A DNA stretch of 64,000 nucleotides from Synechococcus sp. PROS-U-1 (GTDB lineage: Bacteria; Cyanobacteriota; Cyanobacteriia; PCC-6307; Cyanobiaceae): contig NZ_CP047951.1 in NCBI RefSeq assembly GCF_014279755.1, positions 682,001 to 746,000 of the forward strand. Direction: 5' to 3'. Shown here in pieces: positions 12,296 through 51,741 of this stretch. Numbering within the stretch: the stretch's first letter is position 1; each line of letters begins with the position of its first letter. The notes beneath the pieces are model-generated. The model saw only the letters and a program-made list of their open reading frames with translations, was not told where the DNA came from and did no database searches. The position numbers were made by a program, and so were the translations under genes.

Positions 12296-12866
12296 GGCGC
12301 AGCTGAGCAGCGATGGCTGCTATCGCTGGTGGCTGCGGCGCTGCTGGGGCGCGGGGGAGGGTTGCCTGCTTTTCATTGGACTCAATCCCTCAAAGGCGGA
12401 TGGACAGCGTGATGACCCAACCCTGCGTCGTTTGATCGGTTTCGCAAGGCAATGGGGATATCGGGAGTTACTGGTTCTCAATCTGTTCGCCCGTATTTCG
12501 CCGTCTCCAGCGGCGTTGCTGCGGGTGAAGGACCCCATCGGTGGGCAGAATGATCTTGTTCTGAACCGCTGCCTCAACCACTGGTCCCTGACGCCTCGGG
12601 TCGATCTTTGGTGCGGTTGGGGTGTAAACGGGGCGCGACGGGATCGGGCTCAAGTTGTCCTTGAAAAGATTCAGCGGTTGCTGCCTGAACGCAGGCGATC
12701 CGTTCCCGACTCGCCGCATCCTCTGATGCTGGGACGGACGGCCTCGGGACAGCCTCGTCATCCGCTTTACGCCCCGCGAAACGCCTGTCTTTGCCCTTTT
12801 CTCTGGGCAGACCCTGAACCGATCCGTCATCCTGAGAAGGCCTTGACGGATGTCCTTCCGAACTGA
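12246..12866 (+). CDS. DUF1643 family protein
   Basis: The 206-residue protein contains the DUF1643 core: LLFIGLNPSKADGQRDDPTLRRL, then YRELLVLNLFA and a DLWCGWGVNG segment. The biochemical role is unknown. I start it at the ATG at 12246, 50 bases inside the end of wecB; the frame is open to 12162 and ATG 12240 is also possible. The overlap suggests translational coupling with wecB. Its TGA shares one base with the ATG of the next gene. Confidence 0.8.
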   Translation: MPANASLSAVAGTSASEAQLSSDGCYRWWLRRCWGAGEGCLLFIGLNPSKADGQRDDPTLRRLIGFARQWGYRELLVLNLFARISPSPAALLRVKDPIGGQNDLVLNRCLNHWSLTPRVDLWCGWGVNGARRDRAQVVLEKIQRLLPERRRSVPDSPHPLMLGRTASGQPRHPLYAPRNACLCPFLWADPEPIRHPEKALTDVLPN

Positions 12867-13111
12867 TGTCCCGTACGCCTCGCCGTTATGCCGTCCATCT
12901 CCACCTTGTGGGAGGGCAGACCGAACGGGTGTTCTTCCCGAAACTCGAGACCTTCCAGGAGTGGTATCAAGGTGTGGTCAATGCCGAGAACCAGGGCGGC
13001 TTCGTCAACGTTCCGATCAGCGATCTGGAGGGTGAATATCTGGTCGTTCGGCCCCAGGCGGTGATCGGCGTGCGCGTGGAACCCCAGTTCTCCTCAGTCG
13101 ATGACGCCTGA
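12866..13111 (+). CDS. Small conserved-looking hypothetical protein
   Basis: The 81-residue soluble protein contains FFPKLETFQEWYQGVV and DLEGEYLVVRPQAVIGVRVEP, suggesting a small alpha/beta fold. It is coupled to DUF1643 through a TGATG overlap, and its 3' end overlaps the antiporter start by 11 bases. I do not recognise the family and assign no function. Tight packing on both sides supports it being a real gene. Confidence 0.7.
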   Translation: MSRTPRRYAVHLHLVGGQTERVFFPKLETFQEWYQGVVNAENQGGFVNVPISDLEGEYLVVRPQAVIGVRVEPQFSSVDDA

Positions 13112-49731: not shown

Positions 49732-50199
49732 ATGCCGGGACCCGTCGTTAATGGCGTTCGTCAGGCGGGAGCGATTGGCTCGGTTGCCCCTGAAACCCAG
49801 GAGCAGGAGACCATGATTCCGTTGATGGCAGAAGGGTGCATTCGTCTTGTCCTGTTGTGCAGTGGCGATGTCTTGCTGGCGCGGCTCCGGCACACAACGG
49901 ATCGCGATGGTGACCATGCCTATCAGTTGCTGCGGCCGCGTCTGGTTCGCCCCGTCGTGGAGCCGTCGAGCGATGCTCAGCCCAGTTGGGTGCTTCAGCC
50001 TTACCTGCTGGGGCTGACGTCCCAGCCCAATCTGGTGCTGTTCAAGGCTGCAGTGGCCTCTGTGCTTGAGCCCGATGCCCTTCTGCTTCAGGCCTATGCC
50101 CAGGAAACGCGCCAAGAGTGCCCTCTTGAAGAAACTCCCGTGGAGCGCCTGAAGCGCGCTTTCCAGGAATTTACGGAGACCTTCGAAGGCTCCCAGTGA
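49732..50199 (+). CDS. Conserved-looking hypothetical protein (155 aa)
   Basis: A helical soluble protein with CIRLVLLCSGDVLLARLRHTTDRDGD and WVLQPYLLGLTSQPNLVLFKA. The second part may be a coiled/amphipathic dimerisation region. The C terminus (PVERLKRAFQEFTETFEGSQ) is acidic. No named family is recalled. Its position between hemC and rpoD leads into the terminator/small-RNA region. Confidence 0.65.
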   Translation: MPGPVVNGVRQAGAIGSVAPETQEQETMIPLMAEGCIRLVLLCSGDVLLARLRHTTDRDGDHAYQLLRPRLVRPVVEPSSDAQPSWVLQPYLLGLTSQPNLVLFKAAVASVLEPDALLLQAYAQETRQECPLEETPVERLKRAFQEFTETFEGSQ

Positions 50200-50224
50200 A
50201 GTGTGGAGCTGAACCTGAATTTCT

Positions 50225-50294
50225 AAAAAGGAAAACCCCAGTCTCAGACTGGGGTTTGATCTCTTCCGTGTGAGGAGGGCGTCTCAATTCCCTC
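50225..50294 (-). ncRNA. Yfr1-like small RNA candidate downstream of rpoD
   Basis: On the minus strand, TATAAA (50306-50301) could be a -10 with a start near 50294. The RNA begins with stem GAGGG (50294-50290)/CCCTC (50279-50275), then an unpaired CTCCTCACAC (50277-50268, overlapping the stem end), then GGAAGAGATC and a perfect terminator hairpin (50257-50233) with a U tract to about 50225. Cyanobacterial Yfr1 is recalled as two hairpins around an unpaired ACUCCUCACAC; here 10 of 11 bases match. An rpoD 3'UTR fragment is the alternative. Confidence 0.45.
50233..50257. terminator. Strong hairpin terminator between hypothetical gene and rpoD
   Basis: An 11-bp stem AAACCCCAGTC/GACTGGGGTTT with a TCA loop. 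A run of A to its left gives U for minus transcripts; a TTT follows on the plus side, so it may act both ways. Confidence 0.85.
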
Positions 50295-50338
50295 TGGCTC
50301 TTTATAGGAGCCCATCGGTGCTTTGAGCCAGGGGGAAT
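50287..50338. repeat. Imperfect 14-bp inverted repeat in the rpoD 3' region
   Basis: ATTCCCTCTGGCTC (50287-50300) pairs with GAGCCAGGGGGAAT (50325-50338) with one G-T wobble, around a loop containing TTTATA. It could compete with the first stem of the small-RNA candidate. A third hairpin, CCCGAG(50355)...CTCGGG(50382), lies nearer rpoD. Confidence 0.6.
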
Positions 50339-50391
50339 GTACTTATGTATTACTCCCGAGACTGTTTGGAGGCAGCCTCGGGCCGGACGAT

Positions 50392-51741
50392 CTATTTGAT
50401 GTATTCCTTGAGTACCCCATTGCGGTTGGGATGGCGCAGCTTGCGCAGGGCCTTGGCCTCGATCTGACGGATCCGCTCGCGGGTCACATCGAAAATCTGG
50501 CCAATTTCCTCAAGGGTTTTCATGCGACCGTCGTCGAGGCCATAGCGGAGGCGAAGCACATCCCGCTCACGGGGGCTGAGCGTTGCCAAGACTCCCTCGA
50601 GGTCTTCACGGAGAAGGTTTTTGGCGACGTCCTGTTCGGGGTTCTCAATGTCGGCTTCGATGAAATCGCCGAGACGGGAATCTTCCTCTTTGCCGATGGG
50701 GGTCTCCAGGGAGATCGGCAGCTGGGCACTCTTGGCGATGAACCGCAGTTTTTCGATGGTCATTTCCATCGATTCAGCGATTTCTTCCTCGGTGGGCTTC
50801 CTGCCGAATTCCTGGGAAAGAACCTTGGTGGTCTTTTTGATCCTGGAGATGGTTTCGTAAAGGTGCACCGGTAGGCGAATGGTGCGGCTCTGGTCGGCGA
50901 TGGCTCGGGTGATGGCCTGACGAATCCACCAGGTGGCGTAGGTGGAGAACTTGTAGCCCTTTTCGTGATCGAACTTTTCCGCTGCACGAATCAAGCCAAG
51001 GCTGCCTTCCTGAATCAGATCCTGGAAGCTCAGGCCCCGATTCATGTACTTCTTGGCAATCGAGACAACGAGGCGCAAGTTGGATTGCACCATTTTTTCC
51101 TTGGCCCGTCGGCCCAACATCAAGCGACGGCGGAAGCGGATGAGTGGCATTTCCACCAACGCAGCCCACTCTTTTTTGTCGGGCTCCCGACCGTTGTCGC
51201 TTTCAAATTGAGACGCCAGTTCCTCGAGATAGAGAAGGTCAGCGATTTTGCGGGCCAGTTCGATCTCTTCATCGGGACGCAGCAGGCGGATCCGTCCGAT
51301 TTCCTGCAGGTAAACCCGGATGGAGTCTTCGGTGTAAACGCCTTTGGGGCCGATTTTGATGCTGGCCAGGGCTTTGGCCTTGGCTTCCTTCTCGGCAGCG
51401 GCTGTTTTGGCCTTCTCTTCAGCTGTTGGTTGAGCTGTAGCTGCCTTGGCTGTGGTTGCTTTCTTGGTGGCTGCCTTCTTGGTGGTGGTTTTTGCCTTTG
51501 TTGCCTTCTTGGCGGTGGCTGCTTTCTTGGTGGTGCCCGAAGCCTTGGCTTGATCGGCCGCGGCCAAGAGCTCATCGGCCGCAGCGTTCAGGTCCTTCGC
51601 GCTTGTCTTGCTGGTGCGTCGGCGTGCGGGAGCTTTTTTGGTTTCTTTGCTGGAGCTCGAAGAGACTTCCTTCACCGTGCCATCAGCATTGGCCAAAAGA
51701 ACGATGTCCGGCTTGGCAGCTTTGGTGGCAGCAGGGGTCAT
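50392..51741 (-). CDS. rpoD: Principal sigma-70 factor RpoD/SigA
   Basis: The 449-residue protein has sigma regions 2-4: [14 protein letters not shown], the region 2 [43 protein letters not shown] (quoted in parts), and the region 4 [25 protein letters not shown]. The first about 130 residues include a long Lys/Ala/Thr tract ([20 protein letters not shown]), unusual in length. It drives housekeeping transcription. The TAG stop is at 50392. Confidence 0.95.

Follow-up and report, generated by a model that had tools for sequence, protein, structure and literature searches.

Organization of the locus

In the window (the whole stretch of 64,000 nucleotides of Synechococcus sp. PROS-U-1 DNA that was analysed), a candidate small RNA (sRNA) gene was found on the minus strand between rpoD and a convergent protein-coding gene (Table 1). 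Starting from a TATAAA located 85 nt past the rpoD stop codon, its elements follow in the order TATAAA, GAGGG, a 10-nt loop, CCCTC, the tail CTCACACGGAAGAGATC, an 11-bp terminator hairpin and a T tract. All of the parts described by the first-pass annotation (the minus-strand TATAAA, the GAGGG/CCCTC hairpin, the Yfr1-like motif CTCCTCACAC, and the 11-bp terminator with its T tract) could be located, at 50306-50225. A covariance model of the RNA (R1) matched genome positions 732229-732296, corresponding to window positions 50229-50296, with 97.0 bits. The 5' end of the predicted transcript was placed 7 nt after the -10 element and its 3' end was set from the terminator. A coding peptide was considered and rejected: a TTG/ATG frame is present, but at the PROS-U-1 locus it continues across the terminator, and one homolog (G019) has C as the first base of the frame.

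Table 1. Features of the rpoD-side sRNA locus (window positions)
Feature	Position	Strand	Remark
sRNA gene, predicted transcript of ~70 nt	50225..50294	-	covariance-model match, inferred start, terminator end
Hyperconserved 37-nt body GAGGGAATTGAGACGCCCTCCTCACACGGAAGAGATC	50258..50294	-	96.5% mean pairwise identity, 27 genomes
5' hairpin GAGGG/CCCTC with 10-nt loop AATTGAGACG	50275..50294	-	predicted folding; nearly invariant
Hairpin arm GAGGG	50294-50290	-	
Hairpin loop AATTGAGACG	50289-50280	-	
Hairpin arm CCCTC	50279-50275	-	
Yfr1-like motif CTCCTCACAC	50268..50277	-	preceded by C, not A
Rho-independent terminator, 11 bp, 3-nt loop	50233..50257	-	T tract to about 50225
-10 element TATAAA	50301..50306	-	conserved in homologs
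Upstream box CATAAGTACA	50338..50347	-	31 nt ahead of TATAA; putative activator site around -50
rpoD (sigma-70)	50392..51741	-	upstream, same strand; Pfam Sigma70 regions 1.2, 2, 3, 4
Convergent 155-aa gene	49732..50199	+	weak DUF6561, below cut-off

Conservation and distribution of the sRNA

A 551-base query matched 31 of the 34 genomes of the genus, weak matches counted. In 10 genomes, PROS-U-1 included, an unbroken match extends from rpoD over the sRNA. Many of the others show a separate, distant match that begins at the -10 element and reaches into the terminator. The covariance model, which was built from 19 homologs and used to search 400 genomes of the family (34 of them of the genus), detected the RNA in 28 of the 34 genus genomes with scores of 70.7 to 98.7 bits. 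When only near-complete genomes (completeness at least 90%, contamination at most 5%) are counted, it was present in 18 of 19, the exception being G029; the remaining misses (G010, G014, G020, G026, and G031) are every one incomplete. Under strict filters, which remote relatives may escape, nothing in the 366 other family genomes scored above 30.1 bits, compared to 70.7 bits for the weakest member, and the best non-genus match (L103, 30.1 bits) has neither the motif nor the body. The convergent gene was found in 10 loci of other genera. The end of rpoD lies on the same stretch in eight of them (it was not found on the stretch in L052 and L053), and no RNA was detected between the two genes in these eight loci, the best model score being 10.7 bits; in one of them (L045), CTCCTCACAC occurs there by itself, hairpin and terminator being absent.

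A 19-nt pattern returned 13 loci from a named collection, 12 cyanobacterial and one from Spirochaetaceae. All 12 cyanobacterial loci have the upstream box, the -10 element (a variant in L091) and the RNA; some are identical in sequence to genomes of the above set and supply names (Synechococcus) rather than independent support. The Spirochaetaceae match has neither promoter nor RNA and was taken as chance. A phage origin was also rejected: one exact IMG/VR match sits inside a reading frame on a contig that lacks all other parts of the RNA, and no match was found in a phage collection or, with a broader pattern, in viral contigs.

The body averages 96.5% identity over 27 genomes (G019 escaped the pattern used for this alignment and was read by eye). 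Identity is 29% in the 30 nt beyond the terminator and 50% in the promoter spacer (16 rows with exactly 31-nt spacing). Such a nearly invariant body suggests a strong constraint on pairing partners. Conservation near rpoD in other Synechococcus, on which the first-pass annotation had made its claim depend, was indeed observed: the motif is kept in 27 of 28 homologs, each time preceded by C, and is lost in G001, where the loop is kept. In the terminator, both partners have changed in 5 of the 10 pairs tested. In the whole structure, this holds for 6 pairs, compared to none to four in slid controls, and 22 cells are changed on both sides, a value reached by 0 of 500 shuffles; the alignment itself had been fitted to this structure. 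Because the 5' hairpin hardly varies, it offers little covariation evidence on its own pairing. On this comparison, it is near certain that the sRNA gene, which is restricted to the genus in the genomes searched, is real. The first-pass proposal of an sRNA gene with a Yfr1-like motif looks correct, with conservation in other marine Synechococcus.

Promoter and independence from rpoD

The -10 element reads TATAA in 26 of 28 homologs, CATAA in G028 and TGTAA in G001; no -35 consensus was found at the PROS-U-1 locus. The pattern for an AAGTACA-type box matched in 20 of 27 rows, each time 30-32 nt ahead of the -10 element (exactly 31 nt in 16 rows, 30 or 32 in four more). The strict pattern failed in seven rows, in each of which an AAGTAC or AAGTAG box was seen by eye, and G019 has an AAGTACA box. 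The identities of box and -10 element in the 16 rows with 31-nt spacing are partly built in by selection. In the window, TAAGTACA occurs once, with 0.06 expected, and the box of G003 includes the stop codon of rpoD. Judged from its sequence, the AAGTACA box is a candidate, and probable, transcription-factor site.

The order and strand of rpoD and the RNA are always the same in the 25 of 28 genomes that have both on one contig (they are on separate contigs in the remaining three). The distance from the rpoD match to the model match is 95 nt here and 48 nt in G001 and G003, while gaps of 191 to 9,951 nt were observed in 13 genomes and exceed 1 kb in 10 of them. These gaps sometimes contain mobile islands, and promoter and RNA are intact nonetheless, which makes a pure rpoD 3'UTR product unlikely, though some read-through from rpoD may occur in PROS-U-1. 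At the other side, 32-55 nt separate the end of the convergent protein match from the sRNA model match in seven genus genomes, in a search that covered part of the genus. Own promoter, own terminator and conserved non-coding body, as expected of a stand-alone sRNA, are all found as judged by sequence conservation.

Some further observations concern the surroundings of the promoter. In PROS-U-1, the promoter spacer (window 50287-50337) is largely complementary to the sRNA start (ATTCCCCCTGGCTC / GAGCCAGAGGGAAT), so that an RNA reading through from rpoD would fold differently around the motif; this complementarity is not universal among relatives. Islands between rpoD and the sRNA in L147 and L148 (G024 and G027) carry VapE-like and resolvase genes. 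The island of G027 is flanked by a 22-bp direct repeat, and no repeat of 10 nt or more was found in G024. The interval resembles an integration hotspot. In G006, a 2217-aa RTX-repeat protein is encoded between rpoD and the sRNA (L146:3457-10110, minus strand).

Relation to Yfr1, Yfr10 and other known RNAs

The ultraconserved Yfr1 11-mer ACUCCUCACAC is matched here in 10 of 11 letters, as had been counted in the first pass, with C replacing A before the motif. The Rfam model of Yfr1 (RF01116) did not match window 50150-50420 at E 10 or below, nor L059 at E 0.5 or below. In the same genome it matched L004 with 66.2 bits, between guaB and trxA, and the canonical copy thus lies elsewhere, as the first-pass annotation had expected. 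Of the 34 genus genomes, 33 have a single RF01116 match above the cut-off. Since Yfr1 is present besides, the rpoD-side sRNA is an additional RNA, and the idea of a second Yfr1 copy was not borne out. The two RNAs are alike in size, in having two hairpins of which the second is a terminator, in CUCCUCACAC, and in their predicted partner Yfr2. They differ in location (beside rpoD, whereas Yfr1 of picocyanobacteria lies between guaB and trxA), in the C for A before the motif, and in the larger share of the motif that lies in the hairpin arm here.

The Yfr10 model (RF02362) scored 16.3 bits here (cut-off 43, E 6), and the sRNA locus is not among its matches in the PROS-U-1 genome at E 10. Yfr10, Yfr12, Yfr18 and Yfr104 (Yfr10-like) resemble our RNA in occupying loci other than that of Yfr1; they carry the Yfr1 motif, of whose 11 letters our RNA has 10. 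Two papers (PMC6778093, PMC2518516) place the Yfr10 motif in a loop atop a stem and Yfr10 next to Yfr2 in MED4, whereas the present sRNA adjoins rpoD. Yfr103 has 290-328 nt and is hence another RNA. At the gathering level, Rfam yielded only tRNAs in the window; the weak matches to rnk_pseudo (24.2 bits, cut-off 55, E 0.036) and to Yfr10 were judged chance or terminator-driven. By the sequence features tested, the rpoD-side sRNA is neither Yfr1 nor RF02362, and we read it as a separate family that belongs loosely to the Yfr1-motif group as this is outlined in parts of the literature (PMC6778093, PMC2518516).

No printed description of the rpoD-side sRNA was found in the open main texts of the literature searched. 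A survey of marine Synechococcus ncRNAs was reportedly made in 2012. Yfr1 and Yfr2 are described in earlier work as almost universal in cyanobacteria. One study (PMC6778093) reports interaction of Yfr2 with both Yfr1 and Yfr10 in Prochlorococcus MED4, names porins as Yfr1 targets in MED4, and states that the Yfr1 motif is present in further RNAs more often than believed.

Frequency and pairing state of the motif

CTCCTCACAC occurs once in the window, where 0.14 occurrences are expected and 14 of 100 shuffles contain one, and five times in the 2,576,003-base genome, compared to four for the reversed control pattern. The 10-mer by itself is weak evidence, its genomic frequency being effectively no higher than that of the reversed control; the sRNA locus is lifted above chance because it is conserved, not because of the 10-mer count. 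The five genomic occurrences are antisense to a grpE-like gene (L001, named by eye), in the sRNA locus beside rpoD (L002), in an unlisted sRNA-like element (L003), in canonical Yfr1 between guaB and trxA (L004, genes named by eye), and on the strand opposite to a Cyano-1 (Yfr2) RNA located past rplL (L005, named by eye).

In Yfr1, the motif characteristically lies single-stranded between two stem-loops. The first-pass description of the motif as fully unpaired did not hold here, because the motif overlaps the CCCTC arm, sharing its own opening three letters with the end of that arm. In the ensemble predicted for the PROS-U-1 sequence, motif letters 1-3 (CTC) are 0.01-0.02 unpaired and the next CTC about 0.5, and ACAC alone reaches about 1.0. 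For Yfr1 of the same genome (longer version), the first two letters of the 11-mer are predicted to be paired and the others at least 0.73 unpaired; the Yfr1 motif of MED4 is predicted to be fully open and that of the L003 RNA intermediate. As modelled, the masking relative to Yfr1 is a difference of degree. An alternative 5' helix that would conceal the whole motif was rejected, as it has no covariation.

Predicted pairing with Yfr2

The PROS-U-1 genome contains four Cyano-1 (Yfr2) RNAs, three of them over cut-off; Yfr2 and Cyano-1 (RF01701) are taken here to be one family. Yfr2 is the predicted partner of the sRNA and carries the complementary motif: the Cyano-1 RNA beyond rplL starts with GUGUGAGGAG, a perfect 10-nt complement of the motif CUCCUCACAC, and another copy has UGUGAGGAGG, a perfect 10-nt complement to CCUCCUCACA, shifted by one letter. 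A Yfr2-like copy GTGAGGAGTG (the 8-nt complement GTGAGGAG, then TG) was found in 28 of the 34 genus genomes, with a pattern that covers only 8 complementary letters and a position beside rplL that was checked in PROS-U-1 alone. Two-strand folding, in which the Yfr2 RNA ends were guessed, predicted -14.4 kcal/mol with the rplL-side Yfr2; shuffled bodies gave -4.2 (sd 2.1), 0 of 100 being as strong, and Yfr1 was modelled at -10.3 kcal/mol. For the other three Yfr2 copies, the modelled binding strength of the sRNA is attained by 4, 3 and 1 of 100 shuffled bodies, and Yfr1 is the stronger modelled binder in two of the four copies. Pairing of the sRNA with Yfr2 is plausible on the basis of these models and the precedent from MED4. 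A co-evolving sRNA-Yfr2 pair was rejected: a copy with GAGGAGG, able to pair also with the C that precedes the motif, was limited to G000 and G030 of the 34 genomes.

The ppa gene (named by eye), which lies within the window and is a documented target in MED4, is not supported as a target of the sRNA, ranking 46 of 70 start regions; it ranks 8 of 70 for the Yfr1 seed. The best predicted duplex among the 70 window start regions, -30.0 kcal/mol, falls about 30 nt into the frame of an 81-aa ORF at 12866-13111.

A sister family without the motif

The weaker model matches revealed a sister RNA of the form GGGG-loop-UGAGACA-CCCC followed by UCACACACGGA. By a pattern with up to 3 mismatches, this family was found in 19 of the 34 genus genomes (L109-L127), and it was not found in PROS-U-1. 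Its members lack the 10-mer and keep the UGAGACRCCC loop and mostly CACACGGA. A GTCACA..GGACA-like box lies upstream of GGGG..TGAGACACCCCTCACACACGGA; L120 is doubtful, and several members have no clear T tract. Together, the motif loss in G001 and the motif-less sister family suggest that the loop may matter more than the motif, and they are the main sequence-based evidence against regarding the motif as the heart of the molecule.

Interpretation and rival explanations

Computation gives a conserved gene with promoter, terminator and complementarity. We favor, with a probability of roughly 60%, a stand-alone trans-acting sRNA of about 70 nt in marine Synechococcus that is linked to Yfr2 and has its own promoter and terminator; given that the gene is real, the modelled link to Yfr2 appears somewhat better than an even bet. 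A chance hairpin joined to an rpoD terminator, chance having been one origin offered in the first pass, would agree with a motif count that is by itself at chance level, but it is refuted by conservation: the covariance-model members in the genus, the conserved body and the terminator covariation leave it a negligible probability. An sRNA derived from the rpoD 3'UTR, through processing or through read-through ending at a shared terminator, had also been suggested. Between rpoD and the sRNA, the scan revealed no further terminator-like site, the rpoD 3'UTR of PROS-U-1 folds strongly (z -5.6), and the unbroken alignments from rpoD through the RNA fit this origin as well, but the conserved -10 element and upstream box, kept at up to 10 kb from rpoD, and the intact unit in the 10 genomes with more than 1 kb to rpoD make it very improbable.

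A real sRNA with an incidental Yfr1-like motif, whose loop AAUUGAGACG and CACACGGAAGAGAUC tail act on targets outside the Yfr1/Yfr2 network, is unlikely. Loop and tail vary about as little as the motif, which is partly masked in the predicted fold, and both G001 and the sister family do without it; retention of the motif in all other homologs, as well as the widespread Yfr2-like copy carrying its complement, speaks against this reading. It is rather doubtful that the sRNA is the Yfr10 RNA verified in Synechococcus WH8102 and thus already detected. That paper (PMC6778093) does report a Yfr1-motif RNA besides Yfr1 in WH8102, verified as Yfr10, but the L003-type RNA with its complete 11-mer is the likelier candidate.

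For the favored trans-acting, Yfr2-linked sRNA, we infer transcription, the start site, pairing in the cell, targets and regulation. The 5' hairpin would display the loop AAUUGAGACG and partly mask the motif; the exposed CACACGGAAG stretch would initiate pairing, upon which the hairpin would open and CUCCUCACAC could zip onto GUGUGAGGAG-type sequences, located where Yfr2 (Cyano-1) RNAs begin and perhaps also in ribosome-binding sites of mRNAs. The sRNA may then compete with Yfr1 for Yfr2 and serve as a differently regulated input to the Yfr1/Yfr2 network. More tentatively, a genus-specific sRNA with a partly masked motif under the control of an AAGTACA-box factor might, together with the motif-less sister, form an extra layer of the Yfr1/Yfr2 system built on one scaffold. 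If true, sRNAs with and without the motif would share a single scaffold. A conserved carrier that is matched by no Rfam family and has an apparently regulated promoter would represent a testable new network node in ecologically important Synechococcus.

Other elements with a Yfr1-type motif

A further sRNA-like gene without Rfam match is present at L003:1466-1545 (about 1057812-1057891 of the PROS-U-1 contig C1, plus strand), in which a hairpin is followed by the full ACTCCTCACAC and a terminator. This type of RNA is conserved with the motif in 12 of the 34 genus genomes (13 DNA matches, of which L145 lacks the motif). In G005 and G006, a hairpin, TCCTCACAC and a terminator (L105:781-842 and L108:782-844, both on the minus strand) directly follow a reading frame that ends in ...GLVKTTFKF and is porin-like by eye.
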